Origin: Chthoniobacterales bacterium
GTDB taxonomy: Bacteria; Verrucomicrobiota; Verrucomicrobiia; Chthoniobacterales; JAATET01
DNA: 64,000 bases
Direction of reading: 5' to 3'
Assembly (NCBI GenBank): GCA_015655545.1
Contig: JAATET010000078.1
Location: 1 to 64,000 of the forward strand
Positions 10,263-55,947 of the stretch are shown one piece after another (positions within the stretch are counted from its first letter, which is position 1; the number at the start of each line of letters is the position of its first letter). The notes below the pieces were generated by a model. The model was given only the letters and a program-made list of their open reading frames with translations. It was not told where the DNA came from and ran no database searches. A program made the translations under genes and the position numbers.

Positions 10263-11072
10263 TTACTGCCCGGGGGGGTTGTCCTGGCCGATGGTCCGTT
10301 CGCCAGTGAGCGCTTCCTGCACGGTGCCGACGACGTTGAGCGTGGTTTTCTTCACCGTCTTGCCGACATTGATCGACGTATCCTTCACGGTCGTTCCGAC
10401 GTTGACCGAAGCATCCTTGACACTCGTGCCGACATTTTTCGAAGTCCGCTCGACGAAGCCGAACACGCCTCCTTTAAAATGCGTTTTGGTTTCCGAATCC
10501 TCATCCGCCGGAGTCGTCTCCACGACCGGCTTCTCCCGCGCGTCGGGATCGACCTGCAAGGCGCGGACAATTTTGCCGTCTTCCGCGGACACCCGGAGAT
10601 TTCCGACCGGAGCGCCCATGTAGTCGAACAAATGCAGCGCCCACATCGGCGCGCCGTCCGCATCATTCGTGCGCAGCGTGTAATCGACGCTGTGAAAGCC
10701 GAGCCTGGCCTTGGTGGCGTCGGCATTCGCCACGCGGAAAGCCCCGTCGGAATCCAGATTCAGGCGTGAAAAATTCAGCATCGGCAGAGCCCCCGTGCCC
10801 ACCGAGTAACCGCGCACCGGCGTGCGCTCCGAGGCGATCTCGCCCCCCGTCACGACGAACTCGCGGATACCGCCCCGCGCCGCGGGATCGCTCATCAGGA
10901 TCGTCCAGCTCTGCGGCTGCGGCTGGCCCGTCTCGCCGCGAACCTCGACGAGCTGCTGGAGAACCCCGTCGCCCTTCGCCTTCTTGACCACCTGCAAAGC
11001 TTCGTAAGCCGTGGCCGCCATGGAATCAGCCGTCAGCGCGCCGAGGACGAAAATAAGAGCGAGCTTCTTCAC
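10263..11072 (-). CDS. Secreted hypothetical protein
   Basis: GTG start gives VKKLALIFVLGALTADSMAATAYEALQ signal-like N-terminus; C-terminal SKNVGTSVKDASVNVGTTVKDTSINVGKTVKK repeats. Confidence 0.7.
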   Translation of the reverse strand: MKKLALIFVLGALTADSMAATAYEALQVVKKAKGDGVLQQLVEVRGETGQPQPQSWTILMSDPAARGGIREFVVTGGEIASERTPVRGYSVGTGALPMLNFSRLNLDSDGAFRVANADATKARLGFHSVDYTLRTNDADGAPMWALHLFDYMGAPVGNLRVSAEDGKIVRALQVDPDAREKPVVETTPADEDSETKTHFKGGVFGFVERTSKNVGTSVKDASVNVGTTVKDTSINVGKTVKKTTLNVVGTVQEALTGERTIGQDNPPGQ

Positions 11073-11157
11073 CAACGGAAACTGTGGCGTAGCGCGACGG
11101 GATTTCCAGCGAATTTTCCCGCTCGATTTTGCGGCCGAACGCTGGAAAGTTGCACTC

Positions 11158-12435
11158 GTGCCCGAAGACATCGCATCGCTGCGGAAATCCCTCGACGTTT
11201 ATCGCGGCCTCGTGGAGGTGAGCAGATTGATCAACTCGATCACCGACTACGACGAGCTGCTGCGCGCCATTTTGGAAGTCGCACGCCGCGTGATCCAGGC
11301 CGAGGCGGCGTCGCTCTTCCTGCGCGGAGAATCGGGCGATCATCTCGATCTGGTGATCTCCTCCAGCGGCGAAGGCGAATTTGTCCAGCCACGGATTCGG
11401 GTCGAAAAAGGCCAGGGCATCGCCGGCTGGGTCTTCGAGCACGGCGAGAGCCTGCTGATTCCGGACGCCTATGCGGACGAGCGGTTTTTTCGGGGCGCGG
11501 ACAAGGCGACCGGCTTCCGCACCCGCTCGATACTCTGCGCGCCGCTGAAGTGGAATGGCAACATCATCGGCGTGCTTCAGGTCCTGAACCCGCGGGAAAA
11601 GGAATCCTTCGAACCTCTCGATCTCGAGGGCTTCGACGCGTATTCGACCATGATCGCGACCGCCATCGAGAAGCTGCGGGCCATCGAGCGCATCCGGCAG
11701 CAGGAACGCGTCGAGCGCGACGTGTCGATCGCCGCGGAGATCCAGCAGGAGCTGCTTTCCCGTTCGATGCCGGACGAAGTGCCGGGCGCGATCTTTGCCA
11801 GCTACAACAAGGCGGCCTCCGATGTCGGCGGAGATTTTTTCTGCGTCTTTCCGCGCAGCCCCTGCGAGATCTACTTCGCGATTTGCGATGTTTCCGGCAA
11901 AGGGATTCCCGCCTCGCTGCTCATGGCGCAGACGTTGAGCGCGATGCAGTTCGTCTTCGCCGTCACGACCAGCCCGGCGAATGCCCTCGCCACGCTGAAC
12001 TCCACGATGCACGAGCATATCGTGCGCGGCATGTTCGTCACCGCGCTCGTGGGCCGCATGACGCCCGAGTCGAGCCGCATCGAACTCTCCAGCGCCGGCC
12101 ATTGCCGCCCATGGCTCGTGCGCGCCAAGGGCGAGCCGATGGAAATTCTCACCGAAGGCGCGCTGCCGCTCGGGATCATGCCGCAAGTTACCTACCGCCA
12201 GGCGAAGGTCGAGCTGGAACCGGGCGACTACCTCATGTGCTACACCGACGGGCTTTCCGAATCCCGCGATCCGGCCACCGGGCAATTTTTCGAAGACCAC
12301 CTTTCCTCGACGCTGAGCCGGAAGTTTTCCAACCCCAAAGAAATTGTCGATCACCTCGTCGCCACGGAGGAGAGATACCGCGCCGGCACGGCCGCGAAAG
12401 ACGATTTGACCCTCCTGGTCGGAGGCTTCCGATGA
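11158..12435 (+). CDS. GAF domain-PP2C (SpoIIE/RsbU-type) serine phosphatase
   Basis: Start inferred at GTG 11158. GAF region (IRVEKGQGIAGWVFEHGESLLIPDAYADERF), then SpoIIE-like DVGGDFFCVF, AICDVSGKGIPASLLMA, GDYLMCYTDGLSESRDP. Confidence 0.9.
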   Translation: MPEDIASLRKSLDVYRGLVEVSRLINSITDYDELLRAILEVARRVIQAEAASLFLRGESGDHLDLVISSSGEGEFVQPRIRVEKGQGIAGWVFEHGESLLIPDAYADERFFRGADKATGFRTRSILCAPLKWNGNIIGVLQVLNPREKESFEPLDLEGFDAYSTMIATAIEKLRAIERIRQQERVERDVSIAAEIQQELLSRSMPDEVPGAIFASYNKAASDVGGDFFCVFPRSPCEIYFAICDVSGKGIPASLLMAQTLSAMQFVFAVTTSPANALATLNSTMHEHIVRGMFVTALVGRMTPESSRIELSSAGHCRPWLVRAKGEPMEILTEGALPLGIMPQVTYRQAKVELEPGDYLMCYTDGLSESRDPATGQFFEDHLSSTLSRKFSNPKEIVDHLVATEERYRAGTAAKDDLTLLVGGFR

Positions 12436-12884
12436 ACCTGCGGCTAAAATTCCCCGCCGACACGAGCTCGCTCGCCGGCATGCGTCACGAATCGCGCGAG
12501 TTTCTGATCGGCGTCGGCGTGCCCGAAATGGATGCGGAGCTCATGGTCCTCGCCCTCGACGAGGCCTGCACGAACATCATTCGCTACGCCTACGGCGGCC
12601 CGACACAGCGCGGCATCCGCCTGAATATCCAGCGACTTCGGCGCGGCATCCGCTGCACTTTGCGCGACTATGGCGCGTCGTGCGACCCGTCGAAGATTCG
12701 CAGCCGGGATCTCACCGACTTCCGGCCCGGCGGACTCGGCGTGCGCATTCTGCACTCGGCCTTCGACCAAGTGCTTTACGAGTCCAAGCCGCGCGGCACG
12801 CAGCTTACCCTGGTCAAGACGCTCGGGCGATCATCCGGGTCCCACGCCGCTTCCGCGGCGCCGGTCGGGCAGTCGTCGCGCTAG
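12432..12884 (+). CDS. Anti-sigma regulatory factor (RsbW-like HATPase_c)
   Basis: LALDEACTNIIRYAYGG (N box), DYGASCDPSKI, GGLGVRILHSAFDQV; ATGA overlap with the phosphatase gene. Confidence 0.88.
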   Translation: MNLRLKFPADTSSLAGMRHESREFLIGVGVPEMDAELMVLALDEACTNIIRYAYGGPTQRGIRLNIQRLRRGIRCTLRDYGASCDPSKIRSRDLTDFRPGGLGVRILHSAFDQVLYESKPRGTQLTLVKTLGRSSGSHAASAAPVGQSSR

Positions 12885-43487: not shown

Positions 43488-43507
43488 AATGTGCCGATCG
43501 GCACATT
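43488..43507. promoter_or_regulatory. Perfect 20-bp palindrome, candidate operator
   Basis: AATGTGCCGATCGGCACATT is its own reverse complement; lies between the LuxR-type gene and the divergent cluster, followed by TTGACA at 43523. Confidence 0.6.
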
Positions 43508-43590
43508 GTTTTCGCATGCGGCTTGACAGAAATTCCCTCTATGCCGAACCACGACCATCTTCCGGATTTCGCACGCGCGCTCCGAGCGCC

Positions 43591-44098
43591 ATGAAATTGC
43601 CGGCTATGCTAAGCCCACGCCCGCGCTCCGTGTCCCGCTATCGCGCGCCCGGCGGACGGTCCGCCTCCTTCGTTCGAGTGGGCGGGCAGATGTTCGATCT
43701 CGACACATTGCTGGCGCCCGGCAGCGGATTCACCATCAGGAGCGCTGACGGAATCAACGCCTCCGGCCAGATCGCAGCGACCGGCACGAACGCTCGCGGC
43801 CAGACGCGTGCCCTCCTCCCCACGCCCATTCCCGACGCCGCGAGCGCGCCCGTCCTTCGCCTCCGAGGCAAAAAACGCCTCACCAAGACGCATTCCCGCC
43901 TCATCCTCTGCGGTACCAGCACCGACGCCATTCGCGTCGAGTCCAAAGCTGGCAAAAGCAGGTTCAAGAAGGCCAAAGGCACCGCGGCACGCTGGAAGAT
44001 TCCGCCTCACGACCCCGCGCATCGTCGTCAAAGGTCGCGCCACCGGTTCAGGCGGCACTTCGAAAACCCTTTGGGTTAAAATCAACCTCCGCGGGTGA
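43591..44098 (+). pseudogene. Frameshifted remnant of a HAF-like repeat protein with the shared basic C-terminal module
   Basis: One frame gives GGRSASFVRVGGQMFDLDTLL...GINASGQIAATG...LRLRGKKRLTKTHSRLILCGTSTDAIRVESKAGKSRFKKAKGTAARWKI; the module continues in another frame as RLTTPRIVVKGRATGSGGTSKTLWVKINLRG*. Confidence 0.65.
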
Positions 44099-44126
44099 TC
44101 GCGGCACTTTCCGAATCTAACCGGCC

Positions 44127-45764
44127 ATGACAACAGTCCTCCGCTCCCATCTCACCGCCGCGCTATTTGTCTTCGCCGCCGCCGGTCCCGCCGCGGCTGC
44201 CGGTGCTCTGGACCCGACTCTGACTGCCAACGCGGACGCGACCGTCTATGGGCTGATCCCCCAGATCGACGGACGGATCCTCGTTTCCGGCGCTTTTACT
44301 GCGATCAATGGCCAGTCGCGCGTCCGTCTCGCGCGGCTGGCGGCTGGCGGCACGATCGATCCCTCGTTTGCACCCCTCGCGAATGACCTCGTTTTCACCT
44401 TCCTTGTTCAGTCCGACGGCAAAGTCCTTGCGGGGGGGCTTTTTACTCAAATCGCCAGCCAACCGCGCAACCGCCTCGCCCGCCTCGAGGCCGACGGCGC
44501 ACTCGATGCATCGTTCGACCCGGATGCGAATGGCCCTGTTTATTGCGCGGTGCCGCAGGCTGATGGCAAGGTGCTCCTGGCTGGAAATTTCACTCAGATC
44601 GCCGGCCAGCCGCGCAACCGCGCGGCCCGCCTGAATGCCGACGGCACGCTCGATGCCGGATTCGATCCCAACGTGAACGGCGAGGTGGACGTTGTGGCCG
44701 TTCAACCCGATGGCAAGGTGCTCATCGGTGGATTATTCAGCCAGATCGGCGGCCAGCCGCGCGGTCAAGCCGCGCGCCTCAATGTCGATGGCACCCTGGA
44801 CCCATCGTTCAATCCCAACGCGAACGCCGGCGTTTTCAACCTGGCCGTGCAAGCCGACGGGAAAATCATCCTCGGCGGATATTTCACTCAAATCGGTGGC
44901 CAGCCACGCAATCACATCGCCCGCTGCAATCTCGACGGCACGCTAGACACCTCGTTCGATCCCGATGCGAATGGCAACGTTTTCAGCGTGGTTCTGCAGA
45001 CCAACGGCGGGATCATCCTCGCTGGACAATTCACTCAAGTCGGCGGCCAGCCCCGAAACCGCGTCGCGCGGGTGGACGCGGGGGGCACCCTGGACCCCTC
45101 GTTTAATCCCGACGCGAACTCCACCGTCAATACCGTCTACTTGCAGGCCGACGGCCGGGTTCTCCTGGGCGGCGATTTCACTCAAATCGGCGGACTTCCC
45201 GCCGCCCGCATCGCCCGGGTTCTCAATGATCCGGCCACACAGCATCTCACGATCACCAGCGCCAATCGTGTCCTTTGGCTGCGCGGCGGCGCCTCTCCCG
45301 AGGCCACGAGCGTCACCTTCGAGCTCTCGACGGATGGAGGATTCGTCCCCCTTGGCGCAGGAACCCGCACGACGGGGGGCTGGGAACTCGACGGCCTTGC
45401 GCTCCCCGCCGCTGGCATCATCCGCGCCCGGGCTCGGACTATGGGTGGCTTTGGGAATGACTTCACAGCGCTAGTGGAATCCCGGTCCAGCTTCACTTTT
45501 TCCGGCCCTATCCCAACGATTGCCGCCAAGGGCAAAGCCACCATAAAAACGAGTCGCAAACGCGTCACCCTCCGCGGCACCTCCACCAACGCCACCAGCG
45601 TCGAATTTAAGGCCCGCAAAGGCGGCTTCAAACCCGCCAAGGGCCCCGTCGCCAATTGGAAAATCCTCCTCCGCATCGAGTCCAAACGCTCCGTCGCCAA
45701 GATTCGCGCCGTCGGACCCGGAGGCACGTCTGCTCCCCTCAAAATCAAGGTTCTGCAAAGATGA
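44127..45764 (+). CDS. Secreted delta-60 repeat protein with shared basic C-terminal module
   Basis: Signal peptide; seven or so units of NGxVxxxxxQxDGKxLxGGxFTQIGGQPRNRxARLxxDGTLDxSFxP; C-terminal KGKATIKTSRKRVTLRGTST... Confidence 0.88.
   Translation: MTTVLRSHLTAALFVFAAAGPAAAAGALDPTLTANADATVYGLIPQIDGRILVSGAFTAINGQSRVRLARLAAGGTIDPSFAPLANDLVFTFLVQSDGKVLAGGLFTQIASQPRNRLARLEADGALDASFDPDANGPVYCAVPQADGKVLLAGNFTQIAGQPRNRAARLNADGTLDAGFDPNVNGEVDVVAVQPDGKVLIGGLFSQIGGQPRGQAARLNVDGTLDPSFNPNANAGVFNLAVQADGKIILGGYFTQIGGQPRNHIARCNLDGTLDTSFDPDANGNVFSVVLQTNGGIILAGQFTQVGGQPRNRVARVDAGGTLDPSFNPDANSTVNTVYLQADGRVLLGGDFTQIGGLPAARIARVLNDPATQHLTITSANRVLWLRGGASPEATSVTFELSTDGGFVPLGAGTRTTGGWELDGLALPAAGIIRARARTMGGFGNDFTALVESRSSFTFSGPIPTIAAKGKATIKTSRKRVTLRGTSTNATSVEFKARKGGFKPAKGPVANWKILLRIESKRSVAKIRAVGPGGTSAPLKIKVLQR
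44212..45195 (+). repeat. Intragenic delta-60 repeats (~50 aa / ~150 bp units)
   Basis: Recurrent FTQIGGQPRNR and DGTLDxSFDPxAN blocks. Confidence 0.85.
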
Positions 45765-48163
45765 ATGCGACTACAAACGCATCAAATCCCGGCCTGCCGC
45801 CGACTGAGGTCCGTCGTCCAGGGCCTTCCTCGCTCGCTCTCTTGATCGTTCTCTCCGCGATCGGCTCGGTATTCGGAGGCAACGACCGATCCGGCGCCAG
45901 CGCGACGGGTGCACCCGCCGCCCTCCCGGCCTCGGACTGGAGTGGCATCCGCGCCGCCTACGAGGCCGGACGACTCCAGATCGTCGAGCAGTCGGACGGC
46001 CACCACACCGCGCGCAACCCCGGCCAGGCCTGGCACACCCGCTTCGACGGGCGCGGATTTCACGTGGAGCCCGCCGCCGCCGATTGGCGCTGGGGCCTCG
46101 CCTTGCGCGCTTATGATGCCGGGGAGGGTCACCGCGTCCAGTTGCGCGCTCCCGCATCCGTGACCGCCGAGGCGAACCGGCTCGCCACCCGATGGGATGA
46201 CGTGCTCTCCGAGTGGTTCGTCAACGGTAGCAACGGTCTCGAGCAGGGCTGGACGATCGCCCGCAATCCAGTCCCCTCGGCTGACACTCCGCTCCGCCTC
46301 GAGCTCGGCGTCACCGGCGGTCTGGCTGCCCGCGTCTCGTCCGATGGCAAACAGGTCACCTTTGCGAACGGCTCCGGCCCCGCCGTCGTCACCTACGCCG
46401 GCCTTCGCGCCTGGGATGCGGACGGCCGTGACGTGCCCGTGCGTTTCGCGGCCTTGGAGAGCCGTTCATCGAGTGCCACGACCGGCCGGTTCGCGGTGGA
46501 GGTCGACACTCGCGGCGGCCGTTATCCGCTCACCATCGATCCCGTTGCACAACAGGCCTACGTGAAGGCATCCAACACCGATGCCGGCGACCTGTTCGGC
46601 AGAAGCGTGGCGATCTCTGGCGATACGGTCGTCGTCGGGGCGCCGGGCGAAGATGGCGACGGCATCGCGGCATCCGGCACGAGCGACGGGACCAACGGCG
46701 ACCCGACCGACAATTCCATCGCCACGGCTGGCGCGGCCTACGTGTTCGTCCGCTCCGGCGGAGGCTGGGCGCAGCAAGCGTATCTCAAGGGCGTCGTCTA
46801 TCCCTTCATCGCACCAGCGGTGAACGACGGTTTCGGCGCGTCGGTCGCGATCGTGGGCGATACGATCGTCGTCGGCGCAAGCGGTAAAACCTCAAACAAG
46901 GGTGCCGCCTTTGTCTTCACCCGATCCGGAGGCTCCTGGTCCGCGGCCCCAGTTCGCCTTCTGGCCTATCCGACTCCCGACGAGTCGGGTTCGTTCGGCT
47001 TATCGGTGGGAATTTCGGGCGACACCATTGTCGTGGGTGCGATTGATTCTCCTGCTCCGGGATCCTACATTGGCCGGGCTTGCGTGTTCGTTCGCACGGG
47101 GACGAATTGGTCCTTGCAGGCTAACCTGCAAGCCTCGAACCCCGAATCACTTGACGCCTTCGGCAGCTCCGTGGCCATATCCGGTGAGACGCTCGTCGTC
47201 GGAGCGCCGAATGAGGGCAGCAGCGAAACGGGAACCGAAGGAACGGGAGCCAACAACAATTCACCGCAATCTGGCGCGGCTTATGTTTTCATCCGCGCGG
47301 GCGGCTTCTGGAGCCAACAGGCCTACGTGAAGGCCTCGAATACCGGACAATACGACCGGTTCGGGACGTCCGTCGCTCTCGAAGGCAACACGCTCGTCGT
47401 CGGCGCCAACTTGGAAGGAAGTGCCACTCAGGAGGTCAATGGGGACCAATCCGACAATAGCCAGTTGGGTAACGGCGCGGCCTATGTCTTCGAACGCAAT
47501 GGCGATTCTTGGCGCCAGACGACCTACTTGAAGGCTTTCGAGCGAAGCGTGCATAGCGGATTCGGCGGATCGGTCGGCCTGTCCGGAAATCGTATTGTCG
47601 TCGGCGCTCCGTATGAAACCGGTGAATTTGGCGAAAGCGGAGCAGCCTACACTTTCGAGCGCACGGGCGCATCGTGGAAGCCGTTTGCCTCCCTGAGAGC
47701 GTCCCACCCCGATGCAAGCGATGACTTCAGCTCGAGCGTCGCGATCTCCGGCAACACGGTGGTCGTCGGTGCCCGCGCCGAGGACAGCATCCGGGTGGGC
47801 ATCAACGGAAACGAGACCGACAATAGTGCGGCCGACGCTGGAGCCGCCTACATCTTCACCCTCACGCCGCCCCCGTCCGTCCGCGGCACCGCAGCACCCG
47901 CCGTCCGCGTGAAGGGCAAAAAGACCCTCCGCACCACCGCCGCCCGCGTCGTGATCAAAGGCACCGCCACCGACCCGGACGCCGACCTGACCCGCGTGGA
48001 AGTCAAAGTCGGCAAGGCCAAATGGAAAAAAGCCCGCGGCTTGGAAAAATGGCGCTTCGTCGTGCGCGGCCTGAAACTCGGCCGCACGAAAATCAAGGTC
48101 CGCGCCCTCGATGCCACCGGCCGCTATTCCTCACCCGTCAAGCTCACCATCTTCCACCGCTAA
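45761..48163 (+). CDS. Secreted FG-GAP repeat protein with shared basic C-terminal module
   Basis: ATG overlaps the upstream stop (ATGA). Repeats DLFGRSVAISGDTVVVGAPGED, DAFGSSVAISGETLVVGAPNEG etc.; C-terminal VRVKGKKTLRTTAARVVIKGTATDPDADLTRVEVKVGKAKWKKARG. Confidence 0.88.
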   Translation: MNATTNASNPGLPPTEVRRPGPSSLALLIVLSAIGSVFGGNDRSGASATGAPAALPASDWSGIRAAYEAGRLQIVEQSDGHHTARNPGQAWHTRFDGRGFHVEPAAADWRWGLALRAYDAGEGHRVQLRAPASVTAEANRLATRWDDVLSEWFVNGSNGLEQGWTIARNPVPSADTPLRLELGVTGGLAARVSSDGKQVTFANGSGPAVVTYAGLRAWDADGRDVPVRFAALESRSSSATTGRFAVEVDTRGGRYPLTIDPVAQQAYVKASNTDAGDLFGRSVAISGDTVVVGAPGEDGDGIAASGTSDGTNGDPTDNSIATAGAAYVFVRSGGGWAQQAYLKGVVYPFIAPAVNDGFGASVAIVGDTIVVGASGKTSNKGAAFVFTRSGGSWSAAPVRLLAYPTPDESGSFGLSVGISGDTIVVGAIDSPAPGSYIGRACVFVRTGTNWSLQANLQASNPESLDAFGSSVAISGETLVVGAPNEGSSETGTEGTGANNNSPQSGAAYVFIRAGGFWSQQAYVKASNTGQYDRFGTSVALEGNTLVVGANLEGSATQEVNGDQSDNSQLGNGAAYVFERNGDSWRQTTYLKAFERSVHSGFGGSVGLSGNRIVVGAPYETGEFGESGAAYTFERTGASWKPFASLRASHPDASDDFSSSVAISGNTVVVGARAEDSIRVGINGNETDNSAADAGAAYIFTLTPPPSVRGTAAPAVRVKGKKTLRTTAARVVIKGTATDPDADLTRVEVKVGKAKWKKARGLEKWRFVVRGLKLGRTKIKVRALDATGRYSSPVKLTIFHR

Positions 48164-48199
48164 AATCCGTCCACTTGAATCCCTGAGGCAAACGGAATT

Positions 48200-51100
48200 A
48201 TGAAAAAACGACCTGCCTTTTTCCGTGCCGCCCGACTCCTGCCCGCGCTCGTTGGCCCGGTTTTCGTCCACGCCGATCCCATCACCTGGCTGGCCGCGCC
48301 TTCCAATGCCGACTGGTCCACCTTCACCAACTGGTCGCCCGGTCTTGTGCCGAACAGCCCGGCCGATACAGCCGTCTTCGCGGGCACGGCGACACCCGGG
48401 GTTTCGCTGTCGGCATTCGCGACCGTCAACGGGATCACGTTCACTCCCGCCGCAGCCGCCAATCCCTTTACCATCACGGTGCTGCGATCAAACGCCTCCG
48501 TGGTGCTCGAACTCAGCGGCGCGGGCATCATCAACAACTCCGGGACCACGCAGAGCTTCGTGGCCGGCGCCACCGCGTCGGGTGTGCAAGGCAACATCCG
48601 CTTTTCAAACGCCGCCACAGCCGGCACGCAGACGTCGTTCCTCACGATCGGCGGCGCCGACGGGTCCGGCGGAGGCGAGATTGACTTTGTCGGCACGGCG
48701 ACCGCCGGCGCCGCGACGTTCACGAATCGCGGAGCTGTGGAGGCCTTTTCCTCCGGCGGCTCCACGACTCTTACCGAGGACGCTACTGCCGACACCGCGA
48801 CGTTCGCCGCCGAGGGCAGCACCGTCGCCGACGCACGGGGCGGTCTCACGGCCTTCACTGGCAACGCCCGCGCGGGCAGCGCCACCCTGATCACCCTCGG
48901 AGGCAGCAATGACGGCGAAGGCGGCACAACGTCCTTTAGCGGCTCCGCCGATGGCGGGAACGCGCGCGCCATCACGCAGGGGAACGGCCGTTTCGACATC
49001 AGCGGGATCACCGCAGGCGCTTTGCAAATCGGCTCGATCGAAGGCAGCGGCTACTATTATCTCGGCGGTAAGCGGCTCACCGCCGGTGGCAATGGCCTCA
49101 GCACCACGGTCACCGGGATTCTCTTCGACGCCGGCAACGGCGGATCACTCGCGAAGGTCGGCGCGGGCACGCTCACCCTCATGCAGAGCAATTCCTTCTC
49201 CGGCGGCGTCTCGGTCTCCGGCGGTCGGCTGCAGGCCGCTGCCAACGGAGCCCTGGGCACGGGCGCGGCCACCATCACCGGCGGCACCCTCGAAATCGCC
49301 GCGGATACCGCGGTGGCGAACGCGATTACCCTCACGGCCGGCACGCTCGCCGTCAACGGCACCACCCAGACCGGCCAGCTCACCCTGACCGCCGGCACAA
49401 TTACCGGCACCGGCACGATCAATCAGCCCTTCACCCTCGGGCAGAACCTCACCCTCGCGCCGGGCAACGGCCCGGGCACCCTCCATACCGTCGGTGAGAA
49501 CTGGGCCGGCGGCGGGCGCTATCTTTGGGAGTTCAATCGCGTGACGGCCGCCGGCGGGAATCAAACCAGCCTGCGCGGCCTCGACCTCGGCGCGGACTTT
49601 CTCGCCCTCGCCGGCCAGCTCTCGATTACCGCGACCAGCGCCGATCCCTTCCGTCTTGACCTCGCAGGCCTCGATCTCGCCGGCGCTCCCGGCGCGGTGG
49701 ACGGCTGGGATCCCAACCGCAGCTACCAGTGGACCCTCGCGACGGCCAGCGGCGGCATCTTCGGCTTCGCGACGGACAAATTTGCCCTCGACGCGACTGC
49801 CTTTGCCGCCGCGAACGCGGTCAACGGCATTTTCTCCCTTGGCCAGACGGGCAACGATCTGGTGCTCAGCTACGTCGCGGTTCTCGAGCCCACGACCTTC
49901 GCCCTGCTCGCCATCGGCGGCCTGGCGATCGCCGGGCTTCGCACCCGATTCCGTCGCCAAAGTCGAAAATCCGCATTCCCGATTTCGCCGTCCCCAATGA
50001 AAACCGCCATCCACTGCCTCGCCCTCGCCGCCGCGATCCATCTCGTGCCCGCCTCCGCCCAGGCCGCTGGCGCGCAAGGGTGGACGGCCACCTCCCTCCA
50101 CCCCGCCGGCGCGACCTCTTCCTATCTCCGGGCCACCACCGGCACGCAACAGGCAGGCGTCGCCTATTTCAGTCCCGGCTTCTCCACCCCGCACGCGGGC
50201 ATCTGGGCCGGCTCGCCCGCCAACTTCGTGGACTTGCATCCCTCCGGCGCGACCTCCTCCGTGCTCGATGCGACCAACGGTGCCCAGCAGGCCGGCTCCA
50301 TCACCGTCCCCATTCCCGTGCCGATCCCCGCGCCGCCCTACGTTCAAATCGAATACCACGAATTCGCAGTCATGTGGGCCGGCACTGCCGCCAGCGCCGT
50401 CAATCTGCACCCCGCGACCGCGACCACTTCCCATCTCCGTGCCATCGCCGGCACCCAGCAGGCGGGCTATGCTGTGACCGACAATTCCGAACACGCGGTC
50501 GTCTGGGCCGGCACCGCCGCCAGCTTTCAGGACATTCATCCCGACGGCTCGACCGAGTCCTTCCTCACCGCCACCACCGGCACTCAACAAGCAGGCCGCG
50601 CCACCTTCAACGGCCACGCCCACGCGGGTATCTGGGCTGGCACCAAACAGAGCTTCGTGGATTTAAATCCCTCTGGCGCGAGCGCCTCATACGTCGCTGC
50701 CACTACCGGCGCCCAACAGGCGGGAGGGGCCACGATCAACGGTGACTCCCACGCGGGCACCTGGGTCGGCACCGCCGCCAGCTTCACGGATTTGAATCCC
50801 GCTGGCACCACCTCTTCCGAACTCTACGCCACCACCGGCACCCGGCAGGCCGGCTATGCCTACATCAACGGCGAATCGCACGCGGGCATCTGGGCCGGCA
50901 CCGCCGCCAGTTTCGTCGACCTCCATTCTGTCCTTCCCGCTGCCTACACCTCTTCCGCGGCCTATGCGATCTGGACCGACGGCGTCACCATTCTTGTCGC
51001 CGGCGACGCCGAAAATGCTGTGGCCAACCGCCAGGAAGCCATGCTCTGGCGCTTCACCTTCGTCGCCCCCACCGTCCGCGTCTCCGGCAAGCATACCCGC

Positions 51101-51340
51101 CGCGTCGCCGCCACGAAGCTCACCTTCAAAGGCACCGCCGCCGATGCGAACGGCGACCTCGCCCGCGTTGAAGTCAAAGTCGGCAAGGCGAAGTGGAAAA
51201 AGGCGCGCGGACTGGAAAAGTGGCGCTTCGTCGCTTACCATCTGAAAATCGGCCGGACGAAAATCCAGGTTCGCGCCACCGATACCACGGGTCTCCGTTC
51301 AAGCCCCGCCAGGCTCACGATCATCCGCCAGTCCCACTGA
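48200..51340 (+). CDS. Fusion ORF: PEP-CTERM beta-strand-repeat protein continuing in frame into a HAF-like repeat protein with shared basic C-terminal module
   Basis: N-terminal signal MKKRPAFFRAARLLPALVGPVFVHA; GAGTLTLMQSNSFSGGVSVSGGRLQA autotransporter-associated strand; internal PEP-CTERM-like LEPTTFALLAIGGLAIAGLRTRFRRQ; second signal MKTAIHCLALAAAIHLVPASAQA at residue 600. Confidence 0.8.
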   Translation: MKKRPAFFRAARLLPALVGPVFVHADPITWLAAPSNADWSTFTNWSPGLVPNSPADTAVFAGTATPGVSLSAFATVNGITFTPAAAANPFTITVLRSNASVVLELSGAGIINNSGTTQSFVAGATASGVQGNIRFSNAATAGTQTSFLTIGGADGSGGGEIDFVGTATAGAATFTNRGAVEAFSSGGSTTLTEDATADTATFAAEGSTVADARGGLTAFTGNARAGSATLITLGGSNDGEGGTTSFSGSADGGNARAITQGNGRFDISGITAGALQIGSIEGSGYYYLGGKRLTAGGNGLSTTVTGILFDAGNGGSLAKVGAGTLTLMQSNSFSGGVSVSGGRLQAAANGALGTGAATITGGTLEIAADTAVANAITLTAGTLAVNGTTQTGQLTLTAGTITGTGTINQPFTLGQNLTLAPGNGPGTLHTVGENWAGGGRYLWEFNRVTAAGGNQTSLRGLDLGADFLALAGQLSITATSADPFRLDLAGLDLAGAPGAVDGWDPNRSYQWTLATASGGIFGFATDKFALDATAFAAANAVNGIFSLGQTGNDLVLSYVAVLEPTTFALLAIGGLAIAGLRTRFRRQSRKSAFPISPSPMKTAIHCLALAAAIHLVPASAQAAGAQGWTATSLHPAGATSSYLRATTGTQQAGVAYFSPGFSTPHAGIWAGSPANFVDLHPSGATSSVLDATNGAQQAGSITVPIPVPIPAPPYVQIEYHEFAVMWAGTAASAVNLHPATATTSHLRAIAGTQQAGYAVTDNSEHAVVWAGTAASFQDIHPDGSTESFLTATTGTQQAGRATFNGHAHAGIWAGTKQSFVDLNPSGASASYVAATTGAQQAGGATINGDSHAGTWVGTAASFTDLNPAGTTSSELYATTGTRQAGYAYINGESHAGIWAGTAASFVDLHSVLPAAYTSSAAYAIWTDGVTILVAGDAENAVANRQEAMLWRFTFVAPTVRVSGKHTRRVAATKLTFKGTAADANGDLARVEVKVGKAKWKKARGLEKWRFVAYHLKIGRTKIQVRATDTTGLRSSPARLTIIRQSH
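50095..50930 (+). repeat. Intragenic HAF-like repeats, 43-aa (129-bp) unit
   Basis: LHPATATTSHLRAIAGTQQAGYAVTDNSEHAVVWAGTAASFQD and successive 43-aa units; the two N-terminal units are longer. Confidence 0.85.
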
Positions 51341-51349
51341 AATCCAGTC

Positions 51350-52372
51350 ATGAAAATCCCATCAACAACGCTCGCCATCGCAGTCCTTGCCCTTTCGCTC
51401 GCGACCGCCCGCGCCGTCGTGCATCCCGTTCCCGTGGACGGCAACGGCTACTTCCACCTGAACAGCGGCCAGGGCCCCTACGTCGGCTATTCGCCGGACA
51501 CCTACAATCCCGCCGTCCCGATCAGCCTCTTCGTCTGGATGCACGGCTGCGGCGGCATGGCCGAAGGCGACATGTATGCCGTCGCCCCCTTCGCAACCCG
51601 TGCGACGCAAAGTTACGTCGCCATTTCCGTCGGCGGGCGCGACGGGGAGTGCTGGGATGTTAACGCCGACACGGCAAAAGTCCTAGCCGCCATCGCGGAT
51701 GTCTCGCGCTACTTCAATATCAACCCCCGCAAGGTCTACTTGGGCGGTTACTCCTCCGGCGGCGACCTCACTTACCGCGTGGGCTTGGAGCACGCGGAAC
51801 TCTTCGCCGGACTCCTCGCCGAAAACACCGATCCCTTCCGTGACACCGGCTCTACCGCTGCGGCCCTCATTGCCGCCGCCGCATGGAGAATCAATGTCGC
51901 CCACCTCGCCCATACCGAGGACGACGTTTACCCGATCGGCACCGTCCGCGCCGATCTCGCCACCCTCTCCGCGAACGGCTTCCCCGTCGTGAAAATCGAA
52001 AAGCCCGGCCACCACTACGACGCAAGCGACTTCATGGCTGGCACAGGAACCGATTACGACCGCATCGCCTTCCTGCTCCCCTACCTCGATGCAGGCTGGG
52101 TCTCGCCCGCTACCTTCGCCCCGCGGATCGACATCGCGAAGACCAAGTTAAAGACGAAGAAACTGAAATTCGTCCTGCGCGGCACCGCGAAATTTGCGAT
52201 CCGCATCGAATACAAAGCCGGCAAAGGCGGATTCAAAAAACTCAAGGGCTCCCCTACGAACTGGAAGCTCAAGCTCGCGCTGAAAACCGGTCGTAACATC
52301 ATTCGCATCCGCGCCATCGGCGTCGGCGGCAGGTCCGCCCCGGTCACGATCGTCATCATCAGCAAAAGGTAG
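51350..52372 (+). CDS. Secreted alpha/beta hydrolase (PHB-depolymerase/esterase-like) with shared basic C-terminal module
   Basis: Signal peptide; ISLFVWMHGCGGMAEGD, VYLGGYSSGGDLTYRVGL nucleophile elbow, PGHHYDAS; C-terminal KTKLKTKKLKFVLRGTAKFAIRIEYKAGKGGFKKLKGSPTNWK. Confidence 0.8.
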   Translation: MKIPSTTLAIAVLALSLATARAVVHPVPVDGNGYFHLNSGQGPYVGYSPDTYNPAVPISLFVWMHGCGGMAEGDMYAVAPFATRATQSYVAISVGGRDGECWDVNADTAKVLAAIADVSRYFNINPRKVYLGGYSSGGDLTYRVGLEHAELFAGLLAENTDPFRDTGSTAAALIAAAAWRINVAHLAHTEDDVYPIGTVRADLATLSANGFPVVKIEKPGHHYDASDFMAGTGTDYDRIAFLLPYLDAGWVSPATFAPRIDIAKTKLKTKKLKFVLRGTAKFAIRIEYKAGKGGFKKLKGSPTNWKLKLALKTGRNIIRIRAIGVGGRSAPVTIVIISKR

Positions 52373-53352: not shown

Positions 53353-54477
53353 CTACGCGGAAACACGCATCGGCATGATGACGTAGAGGAAGTCGGAATT
53401 GATCTTCAATACGCCGGGGCTCATCTCGTCGATGAGATGGAGATGAATCTCGTCGTTCGAGAGCGCCTTGAGCGGATCCATCAGATACTCGGGATTGAAT
53501 GCGATCGAGAAATCGCGGCCGCGGTAAGCGACCGCGAGCGATTCCTTGGCTTCGCCGATTTCCGGCGTGTTCGAGGTGACCTCGATATTGTTCTTCGAGA
53601 AGTTCAGCCGGATCGAGCTCGTCTTGTCACTGCTCAGCAACGAAACGCGCCGCACGCAGGTCAGGAACGTCTCGCGCTCGAGGACGATGACTTCCTTCAC
53701 ATCCTCGCTGGAGGGGATGACCTGCTTGTAATTCGGGTAGTTGCCGTCCACGAGTTTGGAAACGAGCAGCGAGCCATTGAGCTCGAAGGAAACGAGGTTG
53801 TCGCTCACCGAAAGCGTGATTTCGCCGTCATCGACGAGCAGGCGCTGGAGTTCGTTGATCGCCTTGGTCGGCACGATGAAATCGAGGTCGAGCTTGCCGG
53901 CAAGTTCGGCGTCGATCGTTTCCTCAAAAAGTGCGAGCCGGCGACCGTCGGTCGCGACGAGCTTGAGCGTGTTTTCCTTGAACGAAAAAAGAATGCCGTT
54001 CAGCACATAGCGAGTCTCGTCCATCGAGATCGCGTAAGAGGTTTTGCGCAGGCCATCCTTCAGCACTTTCTGCTGCAGCGAAATCGCGCGGGCATCCTTC
54101 GAGCTCGGGAAGGCGGGAAATTCGTCGCGGGCGAGACCGTAAATTTTGAAGAAGCTCTGTCCGCTGCGAATGCTGGAGATGCTCTTGGCATCGGTCTCGA
54201 TCTGAATGTCGCTCGCGGGCAGTTCGCGGATGATGGCGAGCAGGCGGCGGGCCGGCAAGGTGGTGGCGCCTGCCTTTTCGATGACGGCGGGCACGTCGCA
54301 GCGCAGGGCGACCTCCATGTCGGTCGTGCTCAAACGAATGCCCGTTTCCGTGGTCTCGATGAGGACGTTGGAAAGCACCGGAAGCGTGGTGCGGCTGCTG
54401 ACGACGTTCTGGGTCTTTTGCAGGCCCTCGAGGAGATTTTCTTTGGTGACGCTGAACTTCATGGAAATGGGGTTCAC
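53353..54477 (-). CDS. dnaN: DNA polymerase III subunit beta (sliding clamp)
   Basis: MKFSVTKENLLEGLQKTQNVVSSRTTLPVLSNVLIET, C-terminal ...YVIMPMRVSA. Confidence 0.96.
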   Translation of the reverse strand: MNPISMKFSVTKENLLEGLQKTQNVVSSRTTLPVLSNVLIETTETGIRLSTTDMEVALRCDVPAVIEKAGATTLPARRLLAIIRELPASDIQIETDAKSISSIRSGQSFFKIYGLARDEFPAFPSSKDARAISLQQKVLKDGLRKTSYAISMDETRYVLNGILFSFKENTLKLVATDGRRLALFEETIDAELAGKLDLDFIVPTKAINELQRLLVDDGEITLSVSDNLVSFELNGSLLVSKLVDGNYPNYKQVIPSSEDVKEVIVLERETFLTCVRRVSLLSSDKTSSIRLNFSKNNIEVTSNTPEIGEAKESLAVAYRGRDFSIAFNPEYLMDPLKALSNDEIHLHLIDEMSPGVLKINSDFLYVIMPMRVSA

Positions 54478-54579
54478 GCACTGGGCGTGATGCGATCCGT
54501 GGTCTCTAACCGCCCACGGCGCGATGTGTCAAAATGAATCCTCCGGGGAGAGACGGCACGATCCTTCCCTTCCACCGTG

Positions 54580-55947
54580 CTAGCGCTGGAGCTGCGTCTC
54601 GATCGACCGGATCATGTGACGCGTGCGCTCGTCTTCGCCCATGCGACGCTTGATGAGTTTGCAGGCGTGAATGACGGTCCCGTGGTCCTTGCCGCCGAAC
54701 AAATCGCCGATCTCGATGAGCGTGGAGTTCGTCATCTGGCGCGAGAGATACATGGCGATCTGGCGCGGATAGGCGATGCTCGCCAGGCGGCGCTTGCTCG
54801 TCATGTCGGCGATGCGCAGGTCGAACATTTCCGCGACCTTGCGCTGAATCTGGTCGATCGTCACCGCCTTGCGCGCCTGTTCCTGGAAAATGTCGCGGAG
54901 CAGCGTCTCCATGTCCTCGCGAGTCACTTGGCGACCGGTCAGCGAACGATATGAAGCGACGCGCATGAGCGCGCCTTCGAGGCGGCGGACGTTGTTGCGG
55001 ATTTTATCGGCGAGAAATTCGATGATCCACTGGTCGAGCTCGATCTTGAGGCCGGCGGCCTTGCTTTGGAGAATCGCGATGCGCGTCTCCATATCCGGCG
55101 GCTGGAGCTCGGCCGTCATACCCCACTCGAAGCGGGAAACGAGGCGCTGCTCGAGTTTCTCGATCTCGCTCGCGGGGCGATCGCTGGAAAGGATGATCTG
55201 TTTGTGGCCGTCGTGAAGGGTGTTGAACGTGTGGAAGAACTCCTCCTGCGAACGCTCCTTGCCGGCGAGGAACTGGATGTCGTCGATCATCAACGCATCC
55301 GCGTGCCGGTATTTCTTGCGGAACTTCACCAGGAAGCCGTGCTGGATCGCATCGATGAACTCGTTCGTAAACTGCTCGCTCGAGAGATAAAAAACTTTCG
55401 CGCCCTTTCGCGAGGCGAGGATGTGGTGGCCGATGGCCTGGAGCAGATGTGTCTTGCCCAGCCCGCTGCCGCCGTAGACAAAGAGCGGATTGTAGGTTTT
55501 GGCCGGAGCCTGCGCGACGGCGAGCGCCGCGGCGTAAGCGAATTGGTTGTTCGAGCCGACGACGAAGGAGTCGAAGGTATTGCGCGGATTCATCCCGCTG
55601 GAAGCAGCCGTGCCGGTCACGCGCTCGCGCGACGCAGCCCGCGGAGGTTCGGGCTCGTCCACGACCTGGAGCGAGGAAGCCGACTCGATGTCGTCCGATT
55701 GCCGGGCAACGATACGTATCTCCCGGGCGCCTTCGAAAACATCCGCCACGGCCCCCTGGACCAAGGGCAGGTAGTTGCTCTCGATAAAAAACTTTTGGAT
55801 CGGGTTCGGCACCGAAAGCGTCAGCGAAGCGCCGTCGTCGCCGCACACCTCGACATCGCTGAACCAGCGCTGAAATCCGTCAGCGCTTACACGAGCGGCA
55901 ATACGCTCCGATATCGAGTTCCAGGTCGTCACAAAATCCTGCGTCAT
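54580..55947 (-). CDS. dnaA: Chromosomal replication initiator protein
   Basis: NPLFVYGGSGLGKTHLLQAIGHHIL Walker A, MIDDIQFLAGKERSQEEFFHTFN, C-terminal DHGTVIHACKLIKRRM. Confidence 0.97.
   Translation of the reverse strand: MTQDFVTTWNSISERIAARVSADGFQRWFSDVEVCGDDGASLTLSVPNPIQKFFIESNYLPLVQGAVADVFEGAREIRIVARQSDDIESASSLQVVDEPEPPRAASRERVTGTAASSGMNPRNTFDSFVVGSNNQFAYAAALAVAQAPAKTYNPLFVYGGSGLGKTHLLQAIGHHILASRKGAKVFYLSSEQFTNEFIDAIQHGFLVKFRKKYRHADALMIDDIQFLAGKERSQEEFFHTFNTLHDGHKQIILSSDRPASEIEKLEQRLVSRFEWGMTAELQPPDMETRIAILQSKAAGLKIELDQWIIEFLADKIRNNVRRLEGALMRVASYRSLTGRQVTREDMETLLRDIFQEQARKAVTIDQIQRKVAEMFDLRIADMTSKRRLASIAYPRQIAMYLSRQMTNSTLIEIGDLFGGKDHGTVIHACKLIKRRMGEDERTRHMIRSIETQLQR

Follow-up and report, generated by a model that had tools for sequence, protein, structure and literature searches.

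The window, a stretch of 64,000 nucleotides, belongs to contig C106 of a 3.0-Mb draft genome that is 84% complete. At 43.8-52.4 kb it contains five plus-strand copies of a common domain of ~84 aa, referred to here as the tail, one of which is frameshifted. The initial annotation had proposed a single C-terminal module on five adjacent genes, and this was borne out by a profile built from four of the window copies, which matches genome-wide. The features of the cluster are as follows.

43846-44098, plus strand: tail copy 1, broken; one reading frame holds from 43846 to ~44001, after which the copy is shifted by one frame up to a stop at 44098
44127-45764, plus strand: exported delta-60 (DUF5122) repeat protein with tail
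45513-45761, plus strand: tail copy 2, at the end of ORF 44127-45764
45761-48163, plus strand: exported FG-GAP repeat protein with tail
47894-48160, plus strand: tail copy 3, the copy used for structure prediction
48200-51340, plus strand: fused ORF, an autotransporter-repeat protein followed by a HAF-like protein with tail
49880-49948, plus strand: PEP-CTERM-like segment within ORF 48200-51340 (15.3 bits, just under the model cut-off of 16)
49998-50066, plus strand: second, internal signal peptide of the same ORF, starting at ATG 49998; MKTAIHCLALAAAIHLVPASAQA
51065-51331, plus strand: tail copy 4, closest to copy 3 despite unrelated bodies
51350-52372, plus strand: exported alpha/beta hydrolase, PHB-depolymerase-like (GYSSGG), with tail
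52118-52366, plus strand: tail copy 5, at the end of ORF 51350-52372

The five genes had been described as encoding tailed secreted proteins. All five tails are present, but copy 1 is broken, ORF 48200 holds two proteins, and most of the set lies outside the window. The body in front of copy 1 (ORF 43489-44079) is degenerate and weakly HAF-like, and neither a start nor a signal peptide could be assigned to it convincingly. The gene spacings given earlier (28 bp, an ATGA overlap, 36 bp, and 9 bp) are all correct; the first gap is 28 bp because the shifted frame of copy 1 runs to the stop at 44098. Spacing alone suggests that the genes of the cluster may be co-expressed, and a scan for promoters and terminators gave nothing above shuffled sequences. 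Of two tail subtypes distinguished by eye, the pair formed by 45761 and 48200 held up (66-68% identity, a supported clade), but copies 1, 2, and 5 did not form a group, their nearest identities being 0.44-0.47. Directly past the cluster, on the opposite strand, lie dnaN and dnaA (window 53353-55947, named from sequence), so the cluster adjoins a likely replication-origin region.

The ORF at 48200-51340 consists of two exported proteins in one frame. It encodes, in order, an autotransporter repeat, a PEP-CTERM-like end, a signal peptide that begins at 49998 (MKTAIHCLALAAAIHLVPASAQAA), a HAF-like body, and the tail. Its first half resembles a PEP-CTERM protein within a tail-gene cluster on contig C10 (37.5% identity over 136 aa). 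This fused ORF is the only one with both a PEP-CTERM match and a tail match.

The profile found 31 tail copies in an initial set of stretches of this genome, with domain E-values of 1e-13 to 1e-36, and 41 places genome-wide at E<=0.01. Such E-values at so many places exclude chance. In other words, the genome of the window has about 40 tail copies, most of them beyond the window. The cluster on C10 is the second one in this genome: it comprises 17 copies on one strand at 115-148 kb, in genes that mostly nearly touch. Likewise, three other genomes of the genus, which together with this one form the genus sample and represent the only genus of the family sampled, have 17-31 copies each. The expectation that the tail is always C-terminal on exported proteins held within the genus. 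In the genome of the window, the tail ended 0-25 aa from the stop codon in 39 of 39 copies examined, that is, all 41 matches except C10:15942 and C44:9201, both in short ORFs. It was C-terminal in 52 of 53 complete ORFs of the genus-mates.

The bodies that precede the tail are diverse. They include HAF, NHL, and delta-60 repeats, FG-GAP repeats, a PHB-depolymerase-like esterase, an FGE-type domain, a cyclophilin, an alpha-L-rhamnosidase, a papain-like peptidase, a heparinase-like protein, DUF4394, and a sulfatase, and no common ancestry could be detected between bodies of different families. Nearly all tail proteins with an intact N-terminus have a predicted signal peptide, as judged by a hydrophobicity heuristic and by reading; several proteins that were negative by the heuristic showed a plain signal on reading or were cut by the end of a contig or locus. 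The sulfatase has a Tat-like signal (RRGFLK), and the other export signals are of the Sec type. A Pro-rich linker often precedes the tail.

The tail had been called strongly basic, and its charge proved extreme. Tails of the genome of the window have a mean net charge of +16.1 and a pI of 11.5, and those of the genus-mates a mean charge of +12.5. The bodies are mildly acidic; only 3 of 1451 body windows of 85 aa reach +8, which is the maximum. The 85 aa that precede the PEP motif average -5 over 14 PEP-CTERM proteins of this genome. Lys and Arg make up 21% of the tail compared to 2.7% for Asp and Glu, and acidic residues are almost confined to a handful of positions, most of which lie in loops. 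The last two positions are Lys or Arg in 91% and 88% of tails. Other conserved residues are G23, W53, G63, and G76, which probably form the core of the fold. Tails of different loci share only ~32% identity, yet the charge is kept. This low identity together with the composition indicates that charge is better kept than sequence.

An Ig-like fold had also been proposed, and the predicted structure and its nearest solved folds support it. AlphaFold2, run on tail copy 3 with 51 sequences, predicted a seven-strand Ig/FnIII-like sandwich (pLDDT 89.5, pTM 0.75), the type of beta-sandwich that defines the bacterial Ig-like (Big) superfamily. The nearest solved fold was the FnIII module of CbhA (3pe9, TM 0.79), followed by the Ig domain of sulfite oxidase and SiiE, and SiiE (2yn3) was also the best PDB profile match (5e-9). 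A model of the whole 51350 protein, made without an alignment, reached a pLDDT of 34.8 and was left out of the fold evidence. Big_7 (PF17957), Big_13 (PF19077), Glucodextran_B (PF09136), and the BIg domains of SiiE share the fold of the tail and give many weak matches: at E<=0.1, Big_7 matched 33, Big_13 26, and Glucodextran_B 28 of 51 tails. The window tails fall under the curated cut-offs of these three families, and among the proteins shown L012 alone passes one (Big_13, 28.6 bits against a cut-off of 27). The tail thus does not appear to be explained by a known family, as nearly all scores are below curated cut-offs. No curated family covers the set, Pfam and NCBIfam giving almost only weak Ig-like matches and NCBIfam none to a sorting domain, and no earlier description of such a tail was found in the literature searched.

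What does the tail do? One possibility is that it serves secreted proteins as a module for binding substrates or particles outside the cell, such as acidic polysaccharide from plants or algae, humic matter, minerals, or extracellular DNA. Its positive charge would suit acidic targets, FnIII-like modules accompany glycoside hydrolases, and some of the bodies are hydrolases or lyases (the esterase, rhamnosidase, sulfatase, and heparinase-like protein). However, most bodies are propeller-like repeats, cyclophilin, or others without an obvious substrate. Furthermore, accessory binding modules do not usually keep to the same end throughout all the proteins of a genome, as the tail does. External binding is thus quite an unlikely explanation.

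The relationships among the tails bear on whether the domain has a function at all. In the genome of the window, neighboring genes with unrelated bodies have tails that are on average 0.65 identical. Tails on related bodies at different loci are no more alike (0.350) than those of unrelated pairs at different loci (0.346). When C10 is left out, sharing a locus makes little difference to tail identity across body families (0.345 vs. 0.302). As a result, tail sharing between neighbors was rejected as a general rule, and the claim is limited to C10 and to the pair 45761/48200. On C10, tail similarity follows position and not body family. Mean DNA identity there is 0.33 upstream, rises sharply to 0.60 inside the tail, and is 0.31 just past its end. 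An orphan tail on C10 (L010:14704-15276) has no body and is joined directly to a sequence homologous to the upstream region of gene 10643-12601, another member of the cluster. It appears that either bodies were exchanged before a standing tail or tails were converted between neighbors, because selection on tail function alone would not tie similarity to position. A single origin of all basic tails was not supported, since the tree is poorly resolved and does not place them in one clade. At least three label changes are required by the supported branches of this poorly resolved tree, so that the basic end domain may have had more than one origin. It could still be argued that the tail has no dedicated function and is an Ig-like accessory domain expanded by duplication, whose position and charge derive from a founder. 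Part of the set is indeed a tandem cluster, and the profile falls within the large superfamily of bacterial Ig domains (Big_7, Glucodextran_B, Big_13). However, tails keep their charge and end position even where those of separate loci are down to ~32% identity, bodies of different families lack detectable common ancestry, and the poorly resolved tree does not gather the basic tails in one clade. The absence of a dedicated function is thus improbable.

The genomes that contain the tail also contain a known C-terminal sorting system. PEP-CTERM and exosortase (TIGR02595, TIGR02602) were first met in Verrucomicrobium (PMC1569441). Exosortase-like proteins occur in all four genomes of the genus, over the cut-off in three; the single match in the genome of the window scored 91.8 bits against a cut-off of 105.55. 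All four genomes have many PEP-CTERM matches, with about 28 over the cut-off in the genome of the window, where PEP-CTERM genes are interspersed with tail genes on contigs C10 and C130. Like the tail, PEP-CTERM is C-terminal and present in many copies per genome on unrelated exported bodies. It differs in being a segment of ~24 aa with a PEP motif, a transmembrane helix, and a basic cluster, all three of which are missing from the tails, whereas the tail is a folded domain of 84 aa. The HAF body of L072, which has a PEP-CTERM ending, is homologous to tail-bearing HAF bodies (35% over 378 aa). Since HAF bodies occur with either ending, the tail and PEP-CTERM are alternatives for one body type at least. 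These alternative endings and the strict C-terminal position are the main reason to regard the tail as a C-terminal location tag, a reading that the sequences support well. A sorting or retention role would likewise fit a domain that is only C-terminal, occurs in many copies per genome, and follows unrelated N-termini on exported proteins.

The explanation that we tentatively favor, at a little under an even chance, is that this tag acts by electrostatic retention of the body on the anionic surface polymer of the cell itself. The protein would leave the cytoplasm via a Sec, occasionally a Tat, signal, and its last ~84 residues would fold into a compact Ig-like sandwich with a net charge of about +16. 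After export, the folded tail would bind an anionic polymer on the cell's own exterior (LPS, exopolysaccharide, or another acidic matrix) and hold the functional N-terminal body at the cell surface. This would be a non-covalent counterpart of the PEP-CTERM/exosortase route, which serves other proteins of the same cell. Within clusters, bodies would be swapped before the tail or neighboring tails homogenized. We infer the surface location and the absence of cleavage, and polyanion binding is a best guess from the charge. A parallel is found in the GW modules of Listeria, which are also basic and C-terminal and keep their protein at the surface by charge. These modules differ from the tail in having an SH3-like fold, occurring as tandem repeats, and targeting the lipoteichoic acid of a Gram-positive surface.

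A different possibility is that a secretion machine recognizes the tail as a signal for export across the outer membrane, by T9SS-like logic or through selection by the type II system, and that the tail is possibly cleaved later. The T9SS C-terminal domain folds as an Ig-like beta-sandwich and is carried by dozens of exported proteins of unrelated kinds (PMC4804311), and the tail resembles it in fold, size class, strict C-terminal position, and range of bodies. The conserved terminal Lys/Arg pair, the occurrence of tails behind both Sec and Tat-like signals, and secretins in all four genomes also point to such a signal. However, by sequence the tail is not a T9SS sorting domain: none of 51 tails matched the type A or B models at E<=0.5, nor did any of 10 whole proteins at E<=0.1. 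The T9SS domain is also from a different phylum, and SprA, the one component of the machinery searched for, gave no match in the four genomes but none in any control genome either, so it may still be present. Furthermore, a loose sequence with kept charge would be odd for a specific receptor, and no candidate export machinery was found adjoining the window cluster. An export signal is thus rather unlikely. Retention by charge would explain why charge outlasts sequence, and a machine-read signal would explain an always-last domain with a basic final pair; retention is placed somewhat ahead. Several points count against it. A purely electrostatic binder could sit anywhere, so the C-terminal position and the basic pair are at least equally good arguments for a machine. 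The exosortase match in the genome of the window is under the family cut-off, and the signal peptides were called by a heuristic. In addition, one genus-mate tail (L115:1-4563, G001:C94) is C-terminal at a net charge of -4, the one clear non-basic exception in the genus.

The tail may add a new option to the protein-sorting tails already described. A broader proposal, possible but doubtful, is that it represents an undescribed sorting or retention system of Verrucomicrobiota in which a supercharged Ig domain replaces the exosortase signal and clusters permit body exchange before a constant tail. Members of this phylum have very many exported proteins of unknown placement. A charge-defined folded tag at the C-terminus would point to the location of ~40 proteins of a single genome together and would be a second solution beside PEP-CTERM within the same cell. 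The tail also offers a simple test of charge-based decoration of a Gram-negative surface, and its profile groups many otherwise nameless proteins.

The tail profile matched 22 of 213 genomes of the order, with just 1-4 weak matches in each matching genome outside the genus, and 38 of 388 genomes in a phylum sample. The matches beyond the genus are isolated, mostly internal, uncharged Ig-like domains. Among 20 stretches from outside the genus, which were high-scoring matches picked by hand and not a random sample, 3 of 19 were C-terminal and the mean charge was -1.0. A phylum-wide domain of the same properties was therefore rejected. Internal matches, which the initial annotation had named as evidence against a C-terminal module, were not a feature of the genus and appeared only outside it, on Ig-like domains without the charge. 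The only close case outside the genus is an NHL protein from another family of the class (L092:1827-3287) with a C-terminal tail of +8. Within the genus, two tandem tails share one C-terminus at L040:1501-2019, the first being the only complete copy that is not terminal. One genus-mate has a second cluster of tail genes (L113, G001:C123:8500-24000) with its own subtype ending in TVTVKSL. Three proteins with internal Ig-like matches at the order level (L103, L105, and L108) have a common C-terminal ending, ~G.G.F....G.....L.P, which is perhaps a separate C-terminal motif.
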